This document shows, piece after piece, positions 4,013 through 29,833 of a stretch of 32,537 nt of DNA (the first letter of the stretch is position 1; every line of letters begins with the position of its first letter). Under the pieces are notes generated by a model. The model worked only from the letters and a program-made list of their open reading frames with translations. It had not been told where the DNA came from and searched no databases. Source of the DNA: Acidimicrobiaceae bacterium (GTDB lineage Bacteria; Actinomycetota; Acidimicrobiia; Acidimicrobiales; Bog-793); NCBI GenBank assembly GCA_027306925.1, contig DAHUXW010000008.1, positions 1 to 32,537 on the forward strand. Reading direction: 5' to 3'. Made by a program: the position numbers and the translations under genes.

Positions 4013-5386
4013 ATGAGCGCGCTCGACCTCGCGAGGTGGCAGTTCGGCCTCACGACCGTCTTCCACTTCTTCTTCGTCCCGGTCACGATCGGCCTCGCGG
4101 TCGTCGTCGCGTCGATGCAGACGCTCGCCTACCGGCGCAAGGACGAGACCTGGGACCGGCTCACGACTTTCTTCGGCCGGCTGTTCCTCATCAACCTCGC
4201 GGTCGGCGTCGTGACCGGCATCGTGCTCGAGTTCCAGTTCGGCATGAACTGGTCCTCGTACTCGGTCTTCGTCGGCAACATCTTCGGCGCGCCGCTCGCG
4301 ATCGAGGGCCTGCTCGCTTTCTTCCTCGAATCGACCTTCGTCGGCCTCTGGGTCTTCGGCAAGGGCAAGCTCTCGCCTCGGCTGCACCTCGCGACGATCT
4401 GGATCACGAGCGCCGGGACCGTGCTCTCGGCCTTCTTCATCCTCGCGGCCAACTCCTGGATGCAGCACCCGGTCGGCTACAAGGTGGAGCACGGGAAGGC
4501 CGTGCTCACGGACTTCTGGGCCGTGCTCGGCAACTCCACGCTCTGGGCGTCGTTCGTCCACACCGTGACCGCCGCGTTCGTCACCGCGGGGGCGCTCGTG
4601 CTCGGCATCGCCGCGTGGCAGATCCGGAAGGGACGCGAGCGTGACGCCTTCGGCCGCGCCGCGCGCTTCGCGGCCGTGTTCACGCTCGTGAGCGTGCTCG
4701 TCACGAGCGTCGCGGGCGACCTCCAGGCTCGCCTCATGGAGACCCAGCAGCCCATGAAGATGGCCGCGGCCGAGGCGCTGTACACGACGAAGAACGGTGC
4801 GAGCTTCTCGATCCTCACGATTGGCGACCTGTCCGGCAAGCCGGTGTTCCAGATCCGGCTCCCGCACGTTCTCAGCCTGGTTGCGGACCTCAGCTGGAAC
4901 GGCAGCGTGCAGGGGATCGACCAGATCCAGGCTTCCGAGACCGCGGCCTACGGGCACGGGAGCTACGTCCCGGTGCTGTGGGTCACCTACTGGTCGTTCC
5001 GCGTGATGGTCGGGATGGGGATCCTGCTCGTCCTGCTCTCCGCGTGGGGCGTGCTCCTCGCGCGGCGCAAGCGGATCGGCGACAGCCCGTGGTTCCTGCG
5101 CGCGGCGATGGCCGGAATGGCGCTGCCGTTCCTCGCGAACGCCTCGGGATGGATCTTCACCGAGATGGGACGCCAGCCCTGGCTCGTCTACGGGCTGCTC
5201 CGCACGCTCCACGGCGTATCGCCGACCGTGAGCACCGCGGACGTCGCGACGACCCTCGCCGGCTTCGTCGGCCTCTACACGGCCATCGGGGTCGTCGACG
5301 CCGTCCTCATGGTGCGAGCGGCGCGCCGAGACCTCGTCGCTCCGGAGCACGGAGAGACGCCCGCCGTCCCCGGGCTCGTCTACTGA
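4013..5386 (+). CDS. cydA: Cytochrome bd ubiquinol/menaquinol oxidase subunit I
   Basis: This is the 457-residue quinol-oxidising, haem-bearing subunit of the membrane bd-type oxygen reductase. Haem ligand candidates are visible: H18 in TTVFHFFFVP (b595 type), H183 in WASFVHTVTAAF and M385 in FTEMGRQPW (b558 type). The acidic pair in APLAIEGLLAFFLESTFVGLW is also present. The length and the short stretch between the central membrane helices indicate the short-Q-loop form common outside enterobacteria. It is the first gene of cydABDC. The ATG at 4013 starts the conserved N-terminus; no convincing ribosome site precedes it. A TTGACG at 3932-3937 could be a -35 box, but no good -10 follows. The oxidase has high oxygen affinity and serves low-oxygen or nitrosative/sulfide stress respiration (family knowledge). 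Confidence 0.97.
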   Translation: MSALDLARWQFGLTTVFHFFFVPVTIGLAVVVASMQTLAYRRKDETWDRLTTFFGRLFLINLAVGVVTGIVLEFQFGMNWSSYSVFVGNIFGAPLAIEGLLAFFLESTFVGLWVFGKGKLSPRLHLATIWITSAGTVLSAFFILAANSWMQHPVGYKVEHGKAVLTDFWAVLGNSTLWASFVHTVTAAFVTAGALVLGIAAWQIRKGRERDAFGRAARFAAVFTLVSVLVTSVAGDLQARLMETQQPMKMAAAEALYTTKNGASFSILTIGDLSGKPVFQIRLPHVLSLVADLSWNGSVQGIDQIQASETAAYGHGSYVPVLWVTYWSFRVMVGMGILLVLLSAWGVLLARRKRIGDSPWFLRAAMAGMALPFLANASGWIFTEMGRQPWLVYGLLRTLHGVSPTVSTADVATTLAGFVGLYTAIGVVDAVLMVRAARRDLVAPEHGETPAVPGLVY

Positions 5387-5440
5387 TGACCGGCGACCGG
5401 GTGCGCACTCCGGTGCCGGAGCTGTCGAGGAGCCGCTGCG

Positions 5441-6565
5441 ATGGGTGAGTTCTCGAACCTGAACACCGCGTGGTTCGCGGTCATCGGTCTGCTCTGGGCC
5501 GGCTACTTCTTCCTCGAGGGGTTCGACTTCGGCGTGGCGGTCGTGAGGCCGTTCGTGGCGGCCGACGACCTCGACCGCAGGATCTGCATGAACGCGGTCG
5601 GCCCGACCTGGGACGGCAACGAGGTCTGGCTTCTCGTCGCCGGCGGCGCGACGTTCGCGGCGTTCCCGCTCTGGTACGCGCAGCTCTTCAGCGGCTTCTA
5701 CCTCGCGCTCTTCGTCGTTCTCGTCGCCCTCATCGCGCGGGGAGTCTCCTTCGAGTTCAGGGAGAAGGACGAGCGCGCGTCGTGGAAGCGGTTCTGGGAC
5801 CGGGCGAACTTCCTCGGGAGCCTCGTGCCCGCGATCGTCTGGGGCGCGGCGTTCACGGACCTCGTCCACGGCCTGCCGCTCGGCCCCGGCGGCACCTACC
5901 GGGGTGGGCTGCTCGGGCTGCTCCACCCGGTGGCGCTCCTCGGGGGGCTCGCGAGCCTCGCGCTCTTCTCCTTGCACGGCTCGGTGTTCCTCGCGTTGAA
6001 GACGTCGGGCGGCGTCGCCCGGCGCGCGAGCCGCCTCGTGCGCGTGCTCGCGCCGTCGACCGTCGTGCTGCTCGCCGGGCTCCTCGGCTGGCTCGTGCAG
6101 GCCGGGCGCCCCGCGATCGCGGGCTCGCTCCCGGCCGTGGTCCCGGTCGCGCTCGCGCTGCTCGGTGTGCTCTTCGTCGTCGCGACCGGTCTGTTCATGG
6201 CCAGGTCGCGCGCGGGGCTCGCGTTCGCGGCAAACGGCCTCGCGATCCTCCTCGTGACCGGTGCCGCGTTCGCCCGGCTGTTCCCCGCTGTCCTCGCCTC
6301 GAGCGGGGTCGCGGCCCATGGCGTCACGATCGAGAGCGCCGCGGCGGGGCACCTGACGCTCGTCGTGATGAGCGTCGTCGCCGCGATCTTCACGCCGCTC
6401 GTCCTCGCCTACCAGGGATGGACCTACTGGGTCTTCCGAGAGCGGCTCGTCCGGCCGCCCGCGGGCGACGGGAGCCAAGCGCCGCCGGACGGGGGACCGG
6501 TCCCGACGCCGCGGCTGCGCGTCGTCCCCGGGCCGATCGCCGCGCGAGGTGATCCCGGCCCATGA
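5441..6565 (+). CDS. cydB: Cytochrome bd oxidase subunit II
   Basis: The 374-residue polytopic partner of CydA starts at the ATG at 5441, with GAGGAG about 10 nt upstream. Family landmarks are AGYFFLEGFDFGVAVV near residue 20, MNAVGPTWDGNEVWLLVAGGA near residue 50, and repeated hydrophobic helices to about residue 335. It lacks haem-binding ligands, as expected, and stabilises the haem-carrying subunit. The C-terminus carries a roughly 35-residue Pro/Gly-rich hydrophilic tail after the last helix (from about residue 337), a little longer than needed. The stop overlaps the cydD start (ATGA at 6562-6565), so assembly genes are translationally linked to the oxidase genes. Confidence 0.96.
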   Translation: MGEFSNLNTAWFAVIGLLWAGYFFLEGFDFGVAVVRPFVAADDLDRRICMNAVGPTWDGNEVWLLVAGGATFAAFPLWYAQLFSGFYLALFVVLVALIARGVSFEFREKDERASWKRFWDRANFLGSLVPAIVWGAAFTDLVHGLPLGPGGTYRGGLLGLLHPVALLGGLASLALFSLHGSVFLALKTSGGVARRASRLVRVLAPSTVVLLAGLLGWLVQAGRPAIAGSLPAVVPVALALLGVLFVVATGLFMARSRAGLAFAANGLAILLVTGAAFARLFPAVLASSGVAAHGVTIESAAAGHLTLVVMSVVAAIFTPLVLAYQGWTYWVFRERLVRPPAGDGSQAPPDGGPVPTPRLRVVPGPIAARGDPGP

Positions 6566-8304
6566 GCGACGCGCACGGGCGCGCGACGCGCACGGCCCGC
6601 GCGCCGTTCGACCGGCGCCTGCTCCCGTACCTGATGCCCGCGCGGTTCGCGCTCGGCGCGTCGGTCGCGCTCGGTCTCGTCGCGACCGCGAGCATCGCGG
6701 CCCAGGCCGTCTTGCTCGCACGCCTCGTCGCGAGCGCTTTCCCGGGCGCTCCAGCGGGCGAGTCACGCGTCGCGATGCTCGCCGGCATCGCCGTCGCTGC
6801 GGCCGTGCGCGGCGCATGCGGTCTCGCGTCGGAGGTCGTCGCACAGCGCGCGGCGACCCGTGTGAAGACGGGGCTTCGCGTCGCGCTCGTCGCGCGGACG
6901 CTCGTCGTCGGCGGTCCCGGCGCGGGCGAGCTCGCCACGATCGCCGGCCGCGGCCTCGACGCGCTCGACGTCTACGTCGGCCGCAGCCTGCCGGACCTCG
7001 TCCTCGCGGGCGCAACGCCGTTCGTGCTCGTGGCGGTCATCGCCTACGAGGACTGGCTGTCGGCCGTCGTCGTGCTCGTCGCGCTCGCGCTCTTCCCGGT
7101 GTTCGGCGCACTCGTCGGGAGGTCGGCCGGCGAGCGGGCGCGCGCGAGGTGGGCGGAGGTCGCGACGCTCGGCGACCATCTCGTCGACCTGTTCGCAGGG
7201 CTGCCCGTGCTGCGCGCCTACGGGCGCACGCAGCGCGAGCGGGTGCGTGTCGAGGAGCTCGGCGAGCGACTGCGGCGGTCGAGCCTCGCGACGCTCAAGG
7301 TCGCGTTCCTCTCCGCGCTCGTGCTCGACACGCTCGCCTCGGTGTCGACCGCGCTCGTCGCGGTGCCGATCGGCATCCGGCTCGTCTACGGCGCGATGCA
7401 GCTCGCGCCCGGTCTCGCCGCGCTCGTCGTGACTCCCGAGGTGTTCATCCCGCTCCGGCGTGCGTCGGCCGAGTTCCACGAGAGCGCCGAGGGTCTCGCC
7501 GCCGCGGCCGGCGCGCTCGACATCCTCGCCGGCCCCGGCCCGCCGAGCGCGCGTCGGATCGACCTTCCGCGCCCGGTGGGCCGGCCGGTTCCACCGCACG
7601 TCGTCCTCCGTTCCGTCGAGGTGCGCGACCCCATCCGGCGTACGGGGCCCGCCGTGCTCGGCGGTTTCTCGCTCGAGGTCGCCGCGGGCGAGATCGTCGC
7701 GCTCGTCGGGCCGAACGGCGCGGGGAAGTCGACCGCGCTCGCCGTCGTGCTCGGTCTCGTCACGCCGAGCTCGGGCAGCGTGTCGGTCGACGGCGTCGAG
7801 CTCTCCGTGATCGATCGAGACGCATGGCGGCTCCGCTGCGCGTACCTGCCCGACCGGCCGACGATCCTCCCGGCGACCCTCGAGGAGAACCTGCGGCTCG
7901 CGGCCCCGTCCGCCTCGGCTCGCGACCTCGCGCGCGGCGTGAGCGGCACATGCCTCGAGCGGCTCGTCGCCCGCCTGCCCGACGGCCTCGCGACGCCGGT
8001 CGGCGAGGGCGGGTGGGCGCTCAGCGCGGGCGAGCGGCAGCGGGTCGCGCTCGGCCGCGCTCTGCTGCGTGACGCGTCGCTCTACGTCCTCGACGAGCCG
8101 ACGGCACATCTCGACGCCGAGACCGAGGCGACGATCGTCGCCGCGATCGGGCGACGGCTCGACGGGCGGAGCGCGCTCGTCGTCACCCACCGCCCCGCGC
8201 TCCTCGAGATCGCCGACCGCGTGGTCCGGATCGAGCGGGAAGGGGTCGTCGCCGTCCCGGCGGAGCCCGGCGACCGCGCGCTCGCGCGCACGTCGCCGTC
8301 GTGA
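6562..8304 (+). CDS. cydD: Thiol reductant ABC exporter subunit CydD
   Basis: This 580-residue half-transporter has an N-terminal six-helix ABC transmembrane domain (about residues 20-310) and a C-terminal ATPase domain. The Walker A is GPNGAGKST near residue 386, the signature is LSAGERQRVALGRALL near 490, and the Walker B is LYVLDEPT near 510, followed by an H-loop THRP. CydDC exports cysteine/glutathione-type thiols or moves haem across the membrane and is needed to mature cytochrome bd. A strong Shine-Dalgarno GAGGTGA at 6546-6552 lies 9 nt before the ATG. The gene overlaps cydB and cydC by 4 bp each. In several actinobacteria CydD and CydC are fused; here they are separate. Confidence 0.94.
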   Translation: MSDAHGRATRTARAPFDRRLLPYLMPARFALGASVALGLVATASIAAQAVLLARLVASAFPGAPAGESRVAMLAGIAVAAAVRGACGLASEVVAQRAATRVKTGLRVALVARTLVVGGPGAGELATIAGRGLDALDVYVGRSLPDLVLAGATPFVLVAVIAYEDWLSAVVVLVALALFPVFGALVGRSAGERARARWAEVATLGDHLVDLFAGLPVLRAYGRTQRERVRVEELGERLRRSSLATLKVAFLSALVLDTLASVSTALVAVPIGIRLVYGAMQLAPGLAALVVTPEVFIPLRRASAEFHESAEGLAAAAGALDILAGPGPPSARRIDLPRPVGRPVPPHVVLRSVEVRDPIRRTGPAVLGGFSLEVAAGEIVALVGPNGAGKSTALAVVLGLVTPSSGSVSVDGVELSVIDRDAWRLRCAYLPDRPTILPATLEENLRLAAPSASARDLARGVSGTCLERLVARLPDGLATPVGEGGWALSAGERQRVALGRALLRDASLYVLDEPTAHLDAETEATIVAAIGRRLDGRSALVVTHRPALLEIADRVVRIEREGVVAVPAEPGDRALARTSPS

Positions 8305-10010
8305 GCGCGCCGCGGAGCGGCGGAGCTCGGCGGGGGCGCTCCGCCGACAGGACGATCGCACTCGTCCGGAACGTCGCCCCGATCGGTCCGCGCCGCCTCG
8401 CCGGGACGCTCGCCACGGGTGCGGCGGCCGCGGCGAGCAACATCGGCCTGCTCGCGACGTCGGCGTGGCTGATCACGACGGCCTCGTCCCGCCCGCCCGT
8501 GCTTGCGCTCAGCGTCGCGATCGCGGCGGTGCAGGCGTTCGCCCTGTCGCGCGGCCTCGCCCGGTACGGCGAGCGGCTCGCGGTGCACGACCTCTCGCTC
8601 GACGTGCTCGCGCGCCTGCGATTGCGCCTCTACGACCGACTCGAGCCGCTCGTTCCCGGCGGGCTCCCGTCGCGCCGCTCGGGAGCGCTGCTGAGCGCGT
8701 TCGTCGCCGACGCGGACGACGTGGGCGAGGCGCTCGCGCGGGGCGTGACCGCGGCCGTCGACGTGTCGGTGACCGCCGTGCTCGGTGTCGCGCTCGCGTG
8801 CGCGCTCGACCTGCGGTCGGGAGCCATCCTCGCGGGCGGCATCGTCGCGACGGGCGCGTCGTCCGCGCTCCTCGCGCACCTCGGCCACGCGAGCGTCGGG
8901 CGGGAGGCGGACGCGCGGGCGGAGGTCGCGGACGTCGTGGTCGCCGCGGTGCGCTCCGCGCCCGAGCTCGTCGCACACGGCAGGACGGACCTCGTCGTCG
9001 GAGCGATCGCCGCCGCGCAGTCCCGGGCGGGGTCCGCGGCGGCGCGCGGCGCGATGTTCGCGGGGGTGCGGCGGGGCGCCGGGGTCGTGCTCGCGGCCGC
9101 GTCGCTCGTCGCGGTCGTCGCGTCCGGCCTCGGGGCCTACGACGCTCGCCGCCTGTCAGCGGTCGCGCTCGCCGTGCTCGTCTTCGCCGCACTCGCATCG
9201 CTCGAGTCCTGCGCTCCGCTCGCCGACGCGCTCGCATCGATGGCCGCGGGCGACGCGGGCGCCCGCCGCATCGCCGCGCTGTCCGAGCTCGAGCCACCCG
9301 CTCCCGAGCCGGTGCTCCCCGCGACGCCGCCCGGTCGCCCCGCACCGCTCGCGCTCGTCGACGCCGTGGTCGCACGGGGAGGCGGAACCGTGCTCGACGC
9401 GGTGTCCGTGGCCGTCGAGCCGGGGCGACGGGTCGCGCTCGTCGGGCCGAGCGGCGCGGGCAAGACCACCGCGGTACTCACGCTCGTGCACTTCCTCGAG
9501 TGCTCGTCGGGGCGCGCGACGCTCGGCGACGTCGACCTCGCTGCGATCGCGCGCCCGGACCTGCGCGACCGGATCGGCTGGGTGCCGGAGGACGCGCACG
9601 TGTTCCGCGGGAGCCTCGGCGCCAACCTGCGCGTCGCGGACCCCACGGCGAGCGACGATCGGTGCCGGCGCGCGCTGCGCGAGGTCGGGCTCGGGCCGTG
9701 GCTCGCGTCGCTCGACGACGGACTCGAGACCCGCGTCGGCTCCGGCGGGCGGCCGCTCAGCTCGGGCGAGCGCCAGCGCCTCGCGCTCGCCCGCGCGCTG
9801 CTCGGCGACCCGGACGTCCTAGTGCTCGACGAGCCGACCGCACACCTCGACCCGGAGGGTGGCACGCTCGTCCTCGAGCGACTGGCCGGCCCGGCGGACG
9901 CCCGGGGCGTGCTCGTCGTGAGCCACGATCCCGAGGCGCGCCGCCACGCGGACGTCGTCGTCGAGCTCGACCGCGGCCGGATCCGTGCGCGCGGCACCCG
10001 AGACGGCTGA
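8301..10010 (+). CDS. cydC: Thiol reductant ABC exporter subunit CydC
   Basis: This is the 569-residue second half-transporter of CydDC, with a transmembrane domain to about residue 310 and then an ATPase domain. The Walker A is GPSGAGKTT near 382, the signature is LSSGERQRLALARALL near 487, and the Walker B is VLVLDEPT near 508. The N-terminal text RRLAGTLATGAAAAASNIGLLATSAWLITTAS-type sequence is the usual CydC start region. The GTG at 8301 overlaps the cydD stop (GTGA). No separate ribosome site is visible, so translation probably depends on coupling. It is the last gene of the operon; a strong stem-loop follows one base after the stop. Confidence 0.93.
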   Translation: MSAPRSGGARRGRSADRTIALVRNVAPIGPRRLAGTLATGAAAAASNIGLLATSAWLITTASSRPPVLALSVAIAAVQAFALSRGLARYGERLAVHDLSLDVLARLRLRLYDRLEPLVPGGLPSRRSGALLSAFVADADDVGEALARGVTAAVDVSVTAVLGVALACALDLRSGAILAGGIVATGASSALLAHLGHASVGREADARAEVADVVVAAVRSAPELVAHGRTDLVVGAIAAAQSRAGSAAARGAMFAGVRRGAGVVLAAASLVAVVASGLGAYDARRLSAVALAVLVFAALASLESCAPLADALASMAAGDAGARRIAALSELEPPAPEPVLPATPPGRPAPLALVDAVVARGGGTVLDAVSVAVEPGRRVALVGPSGAGKTTAVLTLVHFLECSSGRATLGDVDLAAIARPDLRDRIGWVPEDAHVFRGSLGANLRVADPTASDDRCRRALREVGLGPWLASLDDGLETRVGSGGRPLSSGERQRLALARALLGDPDVLVLDEPTAHLDPEGGTLVLERLAGPADARGVLVVSHDPEARRHADVVVELDRGRIRARGTRDG

Positions 10011-13569: not shown

Positions 13570-13607
13570 GTTGACGAGCTGTTGACGCGTTCCGACCCAC
13601 TGTTGAC
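13570..13607 (+). promoter_or_regulatory. Three phased GTTGAC repeats in the kdp leader
   Basis: GTTGAC occurs at 13570, 13581 and 13602, so the offsets are 11 and 21 bp, about one and two helical turns. OmpR-family regulators such as KdpE bind direct repeats with about this period, so these may be KdpE half-sites upstream of the kdp genes. Two copies read TTGACG and one TTGACA, so one may instead be a -35 box; no clear -10 follows at 17 bp. Confidence 0.4.
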
Positions 13608-13642
13608 AACCTGGTGATGCGCGTCGGCCGCAAAGTGGACCC

Positions 13643-13726
13643 ATGGCCGATCTGCTGTCCGTCGTCGGGATCGTCGTGTTCACCGTCGTCACCCTCGGGC
13701 TCGTCCGGGCCCTCGAGCGCGTATGA
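13643..13726 (+). CDS. 27-residue membrane peptide ahead of kdpF
   Basis: A short ORF starting MADLLSVVGIVVFTVV and ending VRALERV is too small for routine gene calling. It has one hydrophobic helix (residues 4-20) and a charged C-terminus. Its stop overlaps the kdpF ATG (ATGA at 13723-13726), exactly as expected of a translated operon gene. Its size and hydropathy resemble KdpF, but the sequence is distinct. I recall similar short membrane peptides next to kdpF in other actinobacteria but cannot verify this here. It is possibly an extra small subunit or regulator of the Kdp pump (inference). Confidence 0.6.
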   Translation: MADLLSVVGIVVFTVVTLGLVRALERV

Positions 13727-13812
13727 ACGCGGTCCAGCTCGCGCTCCTTGTCCTGTCGGTCCTCCTCCTCGCCTATCTCGGCGTCGCGATGTTCAAGCCG
13801 GAGTGGTTCTAG
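13723..13812 (+). CDS. kdpF: K+-transporting ATPase small subunit KdpF
   Basis: This 29-residue protein (begins MNAVQLALLVLSVLLLAY, ends MFKPEWF) has a single membrane helix followed by the conserved short KdpF tail with a Pro-Glu near the end. It stabilises the KdpABC complex in the membrane. It overlaps the preceding 27-codon gene by 4 bp, and kdpA begins on the base after its stop. Too short for the usual length cut-offs, it is identified by position and by its tail. Confidence 0.88.
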   Translation: MNAVQLALLVLSVLLLAYLGVAMFKPEWF

Positions 13813-15504
13813 GTGGGCTTCTTCTGGACGATCGTCACGCTGCTCGCCGCGCTCGCGCTCACCTGGCGGTACCTCGGGTCGTACATGGCCGCGGTCTTCG
13901 ACGGCCGGGTGCGGTGGCTGCGGGTGCTCGAGCGCCCGATCTACCGGGCACTCGGGACGAGCCCCGAGCAGGAGCAGACGTGGACCCGCTACGCGACCTC
14001 GCTCGTCGTGTTCTCGGGGGTGTCGATCGCGCTCACGTACCTGCTGCTGCGCATCCAGGGATCGCTGCCGCTGAACCCCCAGCGCCTCGCGGCCGTCCCG
14101 CCCGCGCTGAGCTTCAACACGAGCGTCTCGTTCGTCACGAACACGAACTGGCAGAACTACGCCGGCGAGACGACGATGTCCTACTTCTCCCAGCTCGCTG
14201 CGCTCATGGTGCAGCAGTTCGTGAGCCCGGCGGTCGGAGTTGCGGTCGCGCTCGCGCTCGTGCGCGGCTTCGCGCGCCGGGGGTCCGCGACGATCGGGAA
14301 CTTCTGGGTCGACATCACGCGTTGCATGCTCTACGTGCTGCTGCCGATCGCGTTCGTCGCGGGCGTCGTCTTCGTCGGCCAGGGCGCGGTCCAGACCCTC
14401 GCCGGGCCCGTTAGCGTGCATGACGCGCTGAACGGCGTCACGCAGACCATCGCGCGCGGCCCGATCGGCTTCATGGAGGCGATCAAGCAGCTCGGCACCA
14501 ACGGCGGCGGCTTCCTCAACGCGAACTCGGCGACGACCTTCGAGAACCCGACGCCGCTCACGAACTGGCTGTCGATCTACCTCGTGCTCGCGATCCCGTT
14601 CGCGCTCACCTACACGTTCGGCAAGATGGTCGGCAGCGTCCGCCACGGCCGTGCGCTGCTCGCGGCGATGGTCCTGATCTTCGGCGTGTGGGTCGGCTTC
14701 ACGAGCGCCGCGGAGCACCAGGGCAACCCGGCGGTCGCCGCGGCGGGGATCACGCACCAGCCGGCGGGCAACATGGTGGGCAAGGAGGTGCGCTTCGGCG
14801 ACACCTCGTCCGCCCTGTTCGCCGTCGCCTCGACGAGCACGTCGACAGGATCTGCCGACGCGTCCTACGACCAGTTCACCCCGATGGGCGGCTTCGGCCT
14901 TCTCACCGGGATGATGCTCGGCGAGGTGACGCCGGGTGGCGTCGGGAGCGGTCTCTACACGATCCTCGTCTACGCGATCATCGCCGTGTTCATCGGCGGA
15001 CTGATGATCGGACGCACACCGGAGTACCTCGGGAAGAAGATCCAGGCGAAGGAGATCAAGCTCGCCGGGCTCGCGTCGCTCGTGATGCCGCTCGCCGTTC
15101 TCGTCGTGACCGGGATCGCGGTGTCGGTGCACGCGGGGCGGACCGGCCCGCTGAACTCGGGTCCTCACGGCTTCACCGAGATCCTCTACGCGCTCACGTC
15201 CCAGGGGAACAACAACGGGTCGGCGTTCGGCGGGCTCTCCGGCAACTCGCCCTTCTACAACGTGATCGGCGCGGTCGACATGCTCCTCGGCAGGTTCGGG
15301 ATCATCGTGCCGGTGCTCGCGCTCGCCGGGGTCCTCGCGGCGAAGGACGTCGTGCCCGAGTCGCTCGGCACCTTCCGCACGGACAACTCGATGTTCGTCG
15401 GCCTCGTGATCGGCGTGATCGTGATCATCGGCGGGCTGACGTTCTTCCCCGCGGTCGCGCTCGGCCCGGTCGTCGAGCAGCTCAGCCACGGGAGGTTCTT
15501 CTAG
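13813..15504 (+). CDS. kdpA: K+-transporting ATPase subunit KdpA
   Basis: This 563-residue K+-selecting channel-like subunit descends from Trk/Ktr-type transporters and has four pore loops. Visible are SFVTNTNWQNY near residue 105, KQLGTNGGGF near 225, ASTSTSTGSADASYDQFTPMGG near 335 and LTSQGNNNGSAF near 460, the four selectivity-filter loops. The GTG start abuts the kdpF stop; GGAG at 13800-13803 gives a ribosome site at 9 nt. It is full length and closes with a hydrophobic helix and a short tail. It acts with KdpB, KdpC and KdpF as a high-affinity K+ importer under K+ limitation. Confidence 0.97.
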   Translation: MGFFWTIVTLLAALALTWRYLGSYMAAVFDGRVRWLRVLERPIYRALGTSPEQEQTWTRYATSLVVFSGVSIALTYLLLRIQGSLPLNPQRLAAVPPALSFNTSVSFVTNTNWQNYAGETTMSYFSQLAALMVQQFVSPAVGVAVALALVRGFARRGSATIGNFWVDITRCMLYVLLPIAFVAGVVFVGQGAVQTLAGPVSVHDALNGVTQTIARGPIGFMEAIKQLGTNGGGFLNANSATTFENPTPLTNWLSIYLVLAIPFALTYTFGKMVGSVRHGRALLAAMVLIFGVWVGFTSAAEHQGNPAVAAAGITHQPAGNMVGKEVRFGDTSSALFAVASTSTSTGSADASYDQFTPMGGFGLLTGMMLGEVTPGGVGSGLYTILVYAIIAVFIGGLMIGRTPEYLGKKIQAKEIKLAGLASLVMPLAVLVVTGIAVSVHAGRTGPLNSGPHGFTEILYALTSQGNNNGSAFGGLSGNSPFYNVIGAVDMLLGRFGIIVPVLALAGVLAAKDVVPESLGTFRTDNSMFVGLVIGVIVIIGGLTFFPAVALGPVVEQLSHGRFF

Positions 15505-17592
15505 ATGGAGCGCGCCGGAACGACCGGGCCCGCGGGGCCGGACGCCTCGCCCGTCGGTGCCGCGGCGCGGCCGCACGGCGTCGCCGAGGCGCGCAGCCTG
15601 TTCGACCGCGAGATCCTGCGCCAGGCGCTCGCCGGCGCGTTCAGGAAGCTCGACCCCCGCGTGCAGGTGCGCAACCCGGTGATGTTCGTCGTGCTCGTCG
15701 GCACCGCCGTCGTGGTCCTCGAGGCGATCCGGCACCCGGGGCGCTTCACGTGGTCGATCGCGATCTGGCTGCTGCTCACCGTCGTCTTCGCGAACTTCGC
15801 AGAGGCGATGGCCGAGGGGCGCGGCAGGGCCCAGGCCGACACGCTGCGCAGGATGCGCTCGGAGACCGAGGCGCGAAAGCTCGCAGCGGACGGCGGCGAG
15901 ACGCGGGTGGCCGCGGCCGAGCTCGCGAAGGGGGACCTCGTCGTGTGCGAGGCCGGCGACTTGATCCCGTCGGACGGCGACATCGTCGAGGGGATCGCCT
16001 CGGTCGACGAGTCCGCGATCACGGGGGAGTCCGCGCCGGTGATCCGCGAGTCCGGCGGCGACCGCTCCGCGGTGACCGGCGGCACGAAGGTCCTGTCGGA
16101 CCGGATCGTCGTGCGGATCACCGCCGAGCGCGGCCACACGTTCCTCGACCGGATGATCTCGCTCGTCGAGGGGGCGGACCGCCAGAAGACGCCGAACGAG
16201 ATCGCCCTCACGATCCTCCTCGCGGCCCTCACGATCGTCTTCCTGCCGGTCGTGGTGGTGCTCCAGCCGTTCGCCCGCTTCGCGGGGGCGTCGGTGTCCG
16301 TGGTCGTGCTCGTCTCGCTGCTCGTCTGCCTCATCCCGACGACGATCGGCGCGCTCCTCTCCGCCATCGGCATCGCCGGGATGGATCGGCTCGTGCAGCG
16401 CAACGTGCTCGCGATGAGCGGACGCGCGGTCGAGGCCGCGGGCGACGTCCAGACGCTGCTGCTCGACAAGACGGGCACGATCACGCTCGGGAACCGGATG
16501 GCCGCGTCGTTCATCCCGGTCCCGGGCCGGAGCGAGGAGGAGCTCGCTGACGCGGCCCAGCTCGCGTCGCTCGCGGACGAGACGCCGGAAGGCCGCTCGA
16601 TCGTGGTGCTCGCGAAGCAACGCTTCGACATCCGAGAGCGCGACCTCGGCGACGGCCACGAGTTCGTGCCGTTCTCGGCGCACACGCGCATGTCCGGGCT
16701 CGACGTCGGCGGCCGGTCGATTCGAAAGGGTGCGGCCGACTCGGTCCGGCGGTGGTCGGCCGACCAGGGAGGAGCGACGCCGGAGGGGCTCGACGAGCTC
16801 GTCGCGCGCGTCGCGCGCGCCGGGTCGACGCCGCTCGTCGTCGCCGACGGCCCGACCGTGCTCGGGGTGATCGAGCTGAAGGACGTCGTGAAGCAGGGCA
16901 TCCGCGAGAAGTTCGCCCAGATGCGCCAGATGGGGATCCGGACGGTCATGATCACGGGCGACAACCCGCTCACGGCCGCCGCGATCGCGGAGGAGGCGGG
17001 AGTCGACGACTACCTGGCCGAGGCGACTCCCGAGACGAAGATGGAGCTCATCCGCTCCGAGCAGGCGGGCGGGAAGCTCGTCGCGATGACGGGCGACGGG
17101 ACGAACGACGCGCCCGCGCTCGCGCAGGCCGACGTGGGCGTCGCGATGAACACGGGGACGACCGCGGCGAAAGAGGCCGGGAACATGGTCGACCTCGACT
17201 CGAACCCCACGAAGCTCATCGACATCGTCGAGATCGGCAAGCAGCTGCTCATCACGCGTGGGTCGCTCACGACGTTCTCGATCGCGAACGACGTCGCGAA
17301 GTACTTCGCGATCGTCCCCGCGCTCTTCGTCGCGACGTACCCGCAGCTGAAGGCCCTCGACATCATGCGGCTGCACAGCGCGCAGTCGGCGGTGATGTCG
17401 GCCGTGATCTTCAACGCGCTCGTGATCGTCGCGCTCATCCCGCTCGCGCTGCGCGGCGTGAAGTTCCGGGCGAGCGGCTCCGCGGCGATCCTCCGGCGGA
17501 ACGCGTTCGTCTACGGCGTCGGCGGGATCGTCGCCCCGTTCGTGTTCATCAAGCTCATCGACCTCGTCCTCACCGCGACCCACGCGTACTGA
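15505..17592 (+). CDS. kdpB: K+-transporting ATPase subunit KdpB (P-type ATPase)
   Basis: The 695-residue catalytic subunit couples ATP hydrolysis to K+ import. P-type hallmarks: the actuator TGES motif near residue 172, the phosphorylation loop DKTGT at about residue 322, and the hinge [10 protein letters not shown] near residue 529. A KdpB-specific helix region [18 protein letters not shown] lies just before DKTGT. The start ATG follows the kdpA stop directly; GGGAGG at 15490-15495 provides the ribosome site. The N-terminal 25 residues are Gly/Ala/Pro-rich and variable; the conserved sequence begins around residue 30 ([15 protein letters not shown]). Confidence 0.97.
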
Positions 17593-17605
17593 TGGAGCGC
17601 ATGTG

Positions 17606-18202
17606 ATGCTCGTCCACCTCCGCCGGTCCCTCGTCATGGCCGTGACGTGCCTCGTGCTGTTCGGCTTCGTGTACGCGCTCGCCGGCACCGGAGTCGCTCA
17701 GCTCCTCTTCTCGCACCAGGCGAACGGTTCGCTCGGCCCCGACGGCTCGGCTCTCATCGGCCAGAGCTGGACGAGCCGCGCGTTCTTCCACGGTCGCCCG
17801 GACGACGCGGGCCCGTACGCGGCCAACCCGGGTTCGCACGTCCCAGGCGGCGACAACCCGCTCGTCGCGAACGGCGTCGCGGGCGGGTCCGGTGCGACGA
17901 ACCTCGGACCGCGCTCGAAGGTCCTCGTCGCGGACACGAGGGCGCTCGTCGCCTACTGGCACTCGATGGGCGTGAACCCGACGCCGGACCTCGTGGCGAC
18001 GTCTGCGAGCGGGTACGACCCTGACATCACCCCGCAGGACGCGCTCGTGCAGATCCCGATGGTCTCGCGCGCGACGGGCATCTCGCCGGCGCGCCTTCGC
18101 CGGCTCGTCGCCCGCGAGGCGCACGGGCCGCAGCTCGGCTTCCTCGGCAGCAGCACGGTGGACGTGCTCCAGCTGAACGAGGCGCTCGCGGCGCTTCGAT
18201 GA
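17606..18202 (+). CDS. kdpC: K+-transporting ATPase subunit KdpC
   Basis: This 198-residue protein has one N-terminal membrane helix (about residues 8-30) and an extracytoplasmic domain. It is thought to raise the nucleotide and K+ affinity of the Kdp pump. Family text is clear: IGQSWTSRAFFHGRP near residue 50, SGATNLGPRSKVL near 95, and YDPDITPQDALVQIPMVSRA near 135. The ATG at 17606 is chosen over the GTG at 17603 because GGAG at 17594-17597 is 8 nt away. The stop overlaps a further small ORF (ATGA at 18199-18202) rather than kdpD. Confidence 0.96.
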   Translation: MLVHLRRSLVMAVTCLVLFGFVYALAGTGVAQLLFSHQANGSLGPDGSALIGQSWTSRAFFHGRPDDAGPYAANPGSHVPGGDNPLVANGVAGGSGATNLGPRSKVLVADTRALVAYWHSMGVNPTPDLVATSASGYDPDITPQDALVQIPMVSRATGISPARLRRLVAREAHGPQLGFLGSSTVDVLQLNEALAALR

Positions 18203-18378
18203 CCGCCGGCGGCACGATGCCCGGAGGAGCGGGGGACGCGACCCACGCGCGCCGGAGCGCACGCCGGCTCTGCGACGCGGTGCCGCGCGGTCGTGTCGAG
18301 GCTACGCTCGGATCTCGCGGTGGACGGCTCGAGCTGCTCAATCCGCGCTACCGCTTCCAGCCGGGCGGCGACGTGTGA
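18199..18378 (+). CDS. 59-residue ORF of unknown function between kdpC and kdpE
   Basis: An ATGA overlap with the kdpC stop opens a 59-codon frame that ends 52 bp before kdpE. The product is basic, without a membrane helix. It starts MTAGGTMPGGAGDATHARRS and ends LNPRYRFQPGGDV. I do not recognise a family. It lies where kdpD would normally be. A faint likeness of the segment PRGRVEATLG to the start of the KdpD N-terminal domain (RGRLK-type strand) is too weak to call it a KdpD remnant. It may be a real small gene or a chance frame; the coupled overlap is the only positive evidence. Confidence 0.3.
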   Translation: MTAGGTMPGGAGDATHARRSARRLCDAVPRGRVEATLGSRGGRLELLNPRYRFQPGGDV

Positions 18379-18430
18379 CGCCCGGGCGCGTGCGCGCAAG
18401 GCGCCGGCGCCGCGTCGTGGGAGGCGGATC

Positions 18431-19150
18431 GTGGCTCGGGTGCTCGTGGTCGACGACGACCCGGCGCTGCGGCGCGTCCTGAGCCTCGGGCTCGGCGCGC
18501 GCGGCCACACGGTGCTCGGCGCGTCGGACGGCCGCCGCGCGCTCGCGGCGGCTGCCACGATCGCGATCGACGTCGTCCTGCTCGACCTCGGCCTGCCCGA
18601 CGTCGACGGGCTCGAGGTCTGCAGGCGGCTGCGCGAGACGGGCGACATCCCGGTCATCGTGCTCTCGGCCGACGCGGCCGAGGCGAGGAAGGTCGCGGCG
18701 CTCGACGGCGGCGCGGACGACTACGTCACGAAGCCGTTCGGCATGGACGAGCTCGACGCGCGGCTCCGGCTCGCCGCGCGCCACTTCGAGCGCCGGGCGT
18801 CCGCCGCGGACGCTGCGCCACTCGCGGTCGGACCCCTCACGATCGACGTCGAACGGCACGTCGCGACGATGCACGGCGAGGCGGTCGAGCTCACGCCGCG
18901 TGAGTTCGAGCTGCTCGCGTACCTAGCGTGCCACGCGGGCAAGGTCGTCACGCATCGGATGATCCTCGGCGACGTCTGGGGCCCGGCCTACGTGGGGGAG
19001 GCGCACTACCTGCGTGTCTACGTCCACCGGCTGCGGCGCGCACTCGGCGACGAGCGCGGCGCGTTCCTGCGCACGGAGCCGGGAGTCGGCTACGCGCTCG
19101 ACCCGGGAGGCTCCCCGGGCGCGTCGACCAGCTCCGCGTACTCGGGGTGA
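18431..19150 (+). CDS. kdpE: KdpE-type OmpR-family response regulator
   Basis: The product has 239 residues. The receiver domain (1-118) shows the acidic pocket VVDDD, the phospho-acceptor D52 in LLDLGLPD and the lysine K101 in VTKPFG. A winged-helix output domain (about 130-225) has LTPREFELLAYLACHAGKVV and YLRVYVHRLRRALGD. The GTG at 18431 is chosen because GGGAGG lies 6 nt upstream and the receiver strand starts there. It should activate kdp transcription when phosphorylated. No kdpD lies beside it, so its kinase must be elsewhere or another kinase serves it. The last 16 residues run past the usual end and overlap the GNAT gene on the other strand. Confidence 0.88.
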   Translation: MARVLVVDDDPALRRVLSLGLGARGHTVLGASDGRRALAAAATIAIDVVLLDLGLPDVDGLEVCRRLRETGDIPVIVLSADAAEARKVAALDGGADDYVTKPFGMDELDARLRLAARHFERRASAADAAPLAVGPLTIDVERHVATMHGEAVELTPREFELLAYLACHAGKVVTHRMILGDVWGPAYVGEAHYLRVYVHRLRRALGDERGAFLRTEPGVGYALDPGGSPGASTSSAYSG

Positions 19151-29761: not shown

Positions 29762-29833
29762 AGGCGGCGAGCGGAATCGAACCGCTGTACAGGGCTTTGC
29801 AGGCCCTTGCCTAAACCACTCGGCCACGCCGCC
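29762..29833 (-). tRNA. tRNA-Cys (GCA anticodon)
   Basis: On the minus strand the acceptor arm GGCGGCG pairs with CGCCGCC, with discriminator T as expected for tRNA-Cys. The D arm is GCC/GGC, the anticodon stem AGGGC/GCCCT with loop CTGCAAA (anticodon GCA), and the T arm AGCGG-TTCGATT-CCGCT. The length is 72 nt and CCA is not encoded. A TAGGGT box at 29843-29848 lies just upstream and may be its -10. The gene's 3' end faces the antiporter and eroded stretch, the side on which tRNA-targeting elements insert. Confidence 0.95.

Follow-up and report, generated by a model that had tools for sequence, protein, structure and literature searches.

The window (the whole 32,537-nt stretch of DNA analysed, contig C153 of a 2.87-Mb assembly in 170 contigs) carries a kdp operon on its plus strand with a short open reading frame, ORF1, at its head (Table 1). 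ORF1 starts with ATG and encodes 27 residues, MADLLSVVGIVVFTVVTLGLVRALERV; its stop and the kdpF start share the ATGA at 13723–13726, and kdpA begins directly after kdpF with zero gap. The sequence-only reading had described two overlapping micro-genes ahead of kdpA, the first encoding a KdpF-sized peptide with one helix, and this description holds: both frames are present and overlap, the peptide has 27 residues against 29 for KdpF, and its hydropathy fits a single span. ORF1 is not the sole KdpF-like gene of the operon, the true KdpF being the next frame, to which TIGR02115 gives 25 bits, slightly below its cut-off of 26.85.

The response regulator frame downstream of kdpC has its receiver domain from residue 50 onwards; its true start is uncertain, and the name, probably KdpE, is taken from its position. 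The nearest relatives of the window KdpA are Acidimicrobiia-type metagenome bins, the closest two (L002 and L051) at 85% among the best 80 of 584 relatives. Within its own assembly, ORF1 has a single match, itself, and the next profile match stands at E 0.74. Elsewhere in the window, at 4013–10010, two genes resembling cydAB, for cytochrome bd subunits I and II, stand ahead of two frames that overlap each other. Of these two frames the Pfam scan covered the first, 6562–8304, which it matched as an ABC transporter, and the second lies at 8301–10010; the whole is probably a cydABDC-type cluster.

Table 1. Features of the kdp locus and its upstream region, in window coordinates
Feature	Position	Strand	Description
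KdpE-like direct repeats	13571..13607	+	TTGAC at 13571, 13582 (11 bp apart) and 13603; degenerate fourth copy, GTGAT, near 13614
-10-like element	13631..13636	+	CAAAGT; ends six bases before the ATG; transcript start predicted at the A of ATG
ORF1	13643..13726	+	27-codon gene for a predicted single-helix membrane microprotein; length, frame and overlap conserved; pN/pS and omega in text
kdpF	13723..13812	+	29 aa, ATG start; Pfam PF09604 28 bits (cut-off 21.2)
kdpA	13813..15504	+	GTG start; TIGR00680 680 bits, PF03814 728 bits
kdpB	15505..17592	+	TIGR01497 1030 bits
kdpC	17603..18202	+	PF02669 157 bits
Response regulator	18293..19150	+	OmpR family, probably KdpE; PF00072 and PF00486

Conservation and predicted promoter of ORF1

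The best 80 of 584 kdpA relatives from genome contigs, less two that begin inside kdpA, gave 78 upstream regions and with the window 79, of which 67 were matched by a seed ORF1 profile at E<1e-3. Leaving out L019 (an N inside the gene), L039 (contig end) and two Azospirillum loci (L076 and L081), we counted 63 copies, window included. All 63 have exactly 27 codons, with no stops and no indels, and begin with ATG (58) or GTG (5). In every locus the last four bases also belong to a kdpF frame of 29 codons that ends in F; they read ATGA in 48 loci, GTGA in 13, and ATAA and CTGA in one each, and at these last two the kdpF start must lie elsewhere or be a rare codon.

The frame is also conserved at the level of the protein. 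Across the 63 copies pN/pS is 0.50 in the ORF1 frame versus 0.96 and 1.35 in the shifted frames, which carry stops in 39 and 36 of the sequences, and G+C at the three codon positions is 0.68/0.35/0.75. After a simple correction, omega comes to about 0.30 for ORF1, 0.29 for kdpF and 0.13 for the kdpA stretch of the same loci, and about 0.38 for ORF1 in 14 copies of the Mycobacterium-type family f34. The protein-level constraint on ORF1 thus equals that on KdpF, an accepted subunit.

A chance open frame or annotation artefact, which the shortness of the peptide and the lack of a Pfam or NCBIfam model convincingly covering it might suggest, is refuted by the 63/63 frame conservation, the in-frame pN/pS, omega and the clean reverse-complement controls (0/142, below), and we give it practically no weight. 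The stops at orthologous positions, or missing codon-level conservation, that the sequence-only reading had named as grounds against its proposal were looked for and are not there: the 63 copies are free of stops and indels and under purifying selection like that on KdpF. The search across actinobacteria with a synonymous/nonsynonymous ratio that it had put forward gave the omega above and a gene distributed far more widely than the actinobacteria. That the Kdp operon includes ORF1 as a genuine gene for a microprotein is close to certain.

In the 63 loci the sequence ahead of ORF1 follows a common plan. An A at −11 is combined with a T at −7 in 46/63; at other offsets the same combination averages 2.8 loci and never exceeds 16. 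A C stands at −1 in 53/63. With the usual geometry of a −10 element, a transcript would begin at the A of the ATG. An excess of Shine–Dalgarno sequences was sought upstream of ORF1 and none was found (9/63 versus a background of about 6). The Acidimicrobiia ORF1 appears to head a leaderless mRNA, with its own ATG as the first codon; this promoter geometry supports the ORF1 start and makes a predicted translational coupling to kdpF likely. At gathering scores Rfam returned only a tRNA gene elsewhere in the window (29762–29833, minus strand), and hence no known riboswitch upstream of ORF1.

Further upstream, TTNA repeats peak at −71, −60, −39 and −28 from the ATG (25, 27, 29 and 32 of 63 in the main register), that is, as two pairs of half-sites 11 bp apart. 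Additional copies lie one base off the main register, and the repeats of the window, with an exact TTGAC-N6-TTGAC pair at 13571–13586, lie one base further upstream. The spacing in these Acidimicrobiia loci resembles that of the E. coli KdpE half-sites, described in passages of PMC3264566 as 6-bp repeats with a 5-bp spacer.

Distribution and position of ORF1

We searched upstream of kdpA in 142 regions: the window, 78 near-window kdpA matches, 36 regions from a draw of Actinomycetota genomes, five Mycobacterium-type regions and 22 plasmid records chosen among 60 matches listed of 465. The set is non-random, the 78 having been picked for closeness to the window and the five fetched for matching ORF1; furthermore, L032 and L110 are the same contig, and one of the drawn regions is a second kdpA copy. 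With profiles from which the tested group had been left out of training, and E-values at a set database size of 2000, ORF1 was matched in 49, 58, 76 and 101 of the 142 regions at i-E<0.001, 0.01, 0.1 and 1, respectively, and the reverse complements of the same regions gave 0/142 at every level. Without the five ORF1-picked regions, L110 and the second kdpA copy, the count at i-E<1 is 97/135. On re-running, all 51 matches with stored ORF1 coordinates were found to lie on ORF1 and in frame.

A first iterative profile trained on Acidimicrobiia had matched 87/142 regions at i-E<0.01 (controls 0) and missed most Streptomyces and Mycobacterium-type copies, which the leave-group-out profiles regained. 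Many Acidimicrobiia copies score above 0.01 in the leave-out test because their whole group was removed from training; 53/71 fall below i-E 1. At this same level ORF1 is recovered in 9/11 Mycobacterium-type regions (five of the 11 picked for matching ORF1), in 16/19 Proteobacteria, Alpha- and Beta- among the groups recovered (the misses being the one E. coli record examined, A. baumannii and L073), in 3/3 Deinococcus, in 2/4 Firmicutes (B. badius and Subdoligranulum, not Listeria and L. plantarum) and in 2/5 Dormibacterota/Chloroflexota, one miss having almost no upstream sequence. The Streptomyces-like group gave 7/7 already at i-E<0.01, and Halobacterium gave no match. Group labels are inferred, Streptomyces-like (f29) from grouping in the KdpA tree with named Streptomyces records and Mycobacterium-type from PPE matches; a KdpA search of plasmids gave no name for f34.

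Among the 246 Actinomycetota genomes drawn, 39 contain kdpA, and the upstream sequence was read in 36 of them, the assembly of the window included and three with fragments or contig ends left out (G144, G192, G219). ORF1 was recovered in 22 of the 36 by leave-group-out profiles (i-E<1) and in L110 by a profile that included its own group. The other 13 have no ORF1 or none that was recognised; they are all four f30, both f41, both f43, f61, L102, f24 and two f28 genomes, with f24 and the two f28 counted as uncertain. Upstream of kdpA by about 200 bases, the f28 loci (L082, L083) have in the place of ORF1 another small hydrophobic frame with a basic tail (e.g., ...IREYLNIRRRD), and the ORF1 profiles do not match it.

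In the 246 genomes, no match remote from kdpA was convincing. The genome-wide profile search, run at E up to 10, is noisy, and only matches adjoining kdpA were trusted: all four matches at E<1e-5 adjoin it, as do three of the ten at E 0.001–0.01, the others lying in open frames of 385–849 aa (six) or in a 34-aa frame (one). This last match, weak at E 0.003, lies at G048:C4:67844–67900 (L119), in a genome where no kdpA was found.

Some of the long-range links stand on weak scores, on position or on inspection by eye, because a 27-residue helix offers few positions: the Chloroflexota loci L070 and L079 score i-E 0.017 and 1.5, Listeria 39 and Deinococcus KNUC1210 0.45, and Deinococcus AJ005 is unscored. 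The Acidimicrobiia, Streptomyces/Mycobacterium-type and Proteobacteria/Deinococcus sets are linked to one another by profile–profile comparison at 93–97% probability. Individual copies vary at their C-termini: L086, L091, L093 and L103 have a tail of about 13–37 residues past the usual end, and the Mycobacterium-type L087 (G150) has 25 codons and an altered ending (...LDLTLRWGS), possibly a decaying copy.

In a KdpA tree computed by a quick method, with no bootstrap values, six rows less than half filled and a weakly supported midpoint root, and read by eye, rows without ORF1 occur in at least four separate places, and ORF1 is found on both sides of the midpoint root. Read informally, the pattern suggests an old gene with several losses. 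In E. coli, f41, f61 and Halobacterium a KdpF is present and no ORF1 was recognised, and in G121 ORF1 lies directly before kdpA with no KdpF detected in the 400 bases read. The two genes are therefore separable, and ORF1 is not needed for every Kdp pump.

The position of ORF1 bears on whether it is mainly a leader cistron, its leaderless translation loading ribosomes that reinitiate on kdpF and kdpA, with the peptide itself mattering little. ORF1 is like leader peptides and coupling cistrons in its leaderless-type start and its four-base overlap with the next gene (ATGA or GTGA in 61/63 loci), and we think that coupling probably occurs. ORF1 precedes kdpF in most lineages. A leader, however, is always the first cistron, and ORF1 is not: it lies behind kdpB in D. 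radiodurans, D. psychrotolerans, D. ficus and G109 (kdpB of G109 by eye), and in two further Deinococcus records, KNUC1210 (i-E 0.45) and AJ005 (by eye), a gene resembling ORF1 comes after kdpF. These placements and the gene order of G121 speak against a function tied to the leader position. Moreover, ORF1 and kdpF do not overlap in the Rhizobium, Azospirillum and S. meliloti records, and ORF1 is conserved as a protein, with an amino-acid constraint equal to that on KdpF and a conservation across phyla that a pure leader has no need of. We consider a mainly leader role quite unlikely.

The Mycobacterium-type loci touch on published work. In M. smegmatis, the kdpFABC transcript start was mapped 120 bp before the kdpF GTG, and the passages of PMC5401905 call the stretch between a long 5'-UTR and treat it as untranslated. 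In nine f34 loci (eight of genus g52 and L088 of another genus) ORF1 starts 74–83 bases before kdpF (80 in seven) and ends in a GTGA overlap. Genus g52 is Mycobacterium by its PPE genes, with 5–99 PPE-family matches in each of the eight genomes tested, and 19 of 31 sampled g52 genomes have an ORF1 match at E≤0.01, irrespective of the presence of kdp. ORF1 would fit such a 120-base stretch at about +37 to +46, figures taken from the f34 loci and not from M. smegmatis sequence, which suggests that the published mycobacterial 5'-UTR may hold a coding region.

Annotation and family assignment

The sequence-only reading had ascribed the lack of annotation to the size of the gene. In support, close copies of the Rhizobium ORF1 occur in 163 plasmid records (protein search), and the 30 rows listed comprise 24 without a feature, one "hypothetical protein" and five records without annotation, so that 24 of 25 annotated records leave ORF1 out. 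Size is only part of the explanation, however, as the equally small KdpF has a feature in 9 of 15 annotated plasmid records with ORF1 beside annotated kdp genes and ORF1 in 2; KdpF has a family model and ORF1 none, and the missing model matters as well. The PLSDB gene tables are incomplete, so the source records may annotate some of the copies. A 34-aa relative in Mycetohabitans (L148, 2290–2394) bears the misleading name "potassium ABC transporter ATPase" (WP_191287747.1), and an Arthrobacter record has ORF1 as a 65-aa "hypothetical protein" with an earlier start. In D. radiodurans, according to passages of PMC5716572, the locus numbering passes from DR_B0083 (kdpB) straight to DR_B0086 (kdpA).

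Pfam and NCBIfam, searched with ORF1 and members of its alignments, gave no convincing family, and ORF1 matched neither PF09604 nor TIGR02115 at E up to 1. We rejected NCBIfam NF040918 (LPFR_fam), which gives ORF1 12.1 bits against a cut-off of 40, and took as generic helix matches both Pfam Deltameth_res (4/15 members of the A3 alignment, best E 0.0011) and other families matched by one A2 or A3 member each (best E 0.013). A PDB sequence search with ORF1 returned nothing at E up to 1; with the window KdpA (E up to 1e-20) it returned three distinct KdpA sequences in 25 entries, all of 557 aa and taken to be those of E. coli. In the open-access literature, from which subscription papers, supplements and preprints are mostly absent, no title or abstract concerns such a gene and the passages retrieved do not mention it.

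ORF1 as a putative subunit of the Kdp pump

The maximum Kyte–Doolittle value over 19 residues is 2.39 for ORF1 versus 2.66 for KdpF, and on hydropathy alone ORF1 would be hydrophobic enough for one membrane span. Position 3 is acidic (D in 60/63 copies), and positions 25 and 26 hold E/D (59/63) and R/K (57/63), respectively; by the positive-inside rule the C-terminus is predicted to be cytoplasmic. The conserved G9 (55), F13 (57), M17 (48), L20 (48) and L24 (60 of 63), spaced 3–4 residues apart, would share one face of the helix, and L18 (50) would lie off it.

ORF1 and KdpF are alike in size, in having one hydrophobic helix, in their operon, in translational overlap and in strength of selection, yet show no sequence relation: hhalign profile comparison gives 0.8% probability, and the [KR]PE.F ending usual in the 14 KdpF rows of the A4 alignment is missing from ORF1, which mostly ends [ED][RKH][VLIA] (63 copies). 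That ORF1 is a duplicate of the KdpF beside it is thus not supported, although descent from KdpF might be so ancient that 27 residues no longer show it.

Some P-type ATPases have small helical partners, SERCA having sarcolipin and phospholamban and MgtA having MgtS. All three are single-span microproteins on or beside a P-type ATPase, and ORF1 would be like them in kind, its own binding being putative. One A3 member of 15 weakly matches the Pfam MgtS-like model (E 0.017), and no other sequence relation to the three was found. As in this class of accessory helices, ORF1 has microprotein size (27 aa) and, by hydropathy, one helix, and is linked to the pump across lineages (101/142; controls 0/142).

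From its sequence and genomic setting, we consider it probable that the product of ORF1, a genuine gene, is a single-helix accessory subunit of Kdp, the second besides KdpF, as the sequence-only reading had suggested it could be. The pump is the most likely partner because ORF1 adjoins kdpF and kdpA, is present even where KdpD looks soluble or is split, and is under KdpF-like constraint. The product would be a single transmembrane helix whose N-terminus faces the outside and whose C-terminus (Glu/Asp-Arg/Lys) faces the cytoplasm, and coupled translation would yield it along with KdpF under potassium limitation. Packed against KdpA/KdpB, this further small accessory subunit would stabilise or tune the pump in the manner of KdpF, and it would have been lost from, or be dispensable in, E. 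coli and a few further lineages.

Sensor kinases, too, are known targets of small helices, as PhoQ is of MgrB, and ORF1 might similarly regulate KdpD, or another membrane protein, and not be a pump subunit at all. Passages of PMC3618439 propose such an action on KdpD for KdpF itself. A KdpD domain is present in all 36 kdpA-bearing Actinomycetota genomes tested, so linkage and co-occurrence alone do not exclude KdpD as the partner. Against this, the KdpD of the window's assembly, on another contig than ORF1 with its neighbours kdpF and kdpA, is a soluble-looking 379-aa frame (G000:C58:44613–45236, L183) with a KdpD domain, a further part and no hydrophobic segment, which makes it an unlikely partner for a helix in this organism. 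In 6/35 other genomes the KdpD domain is likewise found only in frames of 371–426 aa, and of these six, four have a recognised ORF1 (G220, G155, G230, G109), G042 is uncertain and G080 yielded none. In D. radiodurans, ORF1 is present and KdpD is split, with the kinase half encoded separately according to passages of PMC5716572. A regulatory role of this kind, on KdpD or another membrane protein, is unlikely in our judgement.

ORF1 could also be an assembly or lipid-binding helper required for the insertion or protection of KdpA/KdpB and not a stable part of the complex. The same genetic evidence supports this as supports a subunit, the data do not separate the two, and nothing direct speaks against the helper; we rate it very unlikely.

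Returning to the subunit reading, it can be taken further: ORF1 may be an ancestral fifth Kdp subunit that most bacterial Kdp systems retain and the E. coli lineage has lost, so that the solved E. coli-type KdpFABC structures would show a reduced form. We put this forward tentatively, giving it somewhat less than an even chance. Kdp is the textbook high-affinity potassium pump, and a conserved membrane microprotein encoded alongside it in most lineages examined, though not in E. coli, would leave the model system short of a component that other bacteria use; if so, the Kdp mechanism would have been studied without one of its parts.
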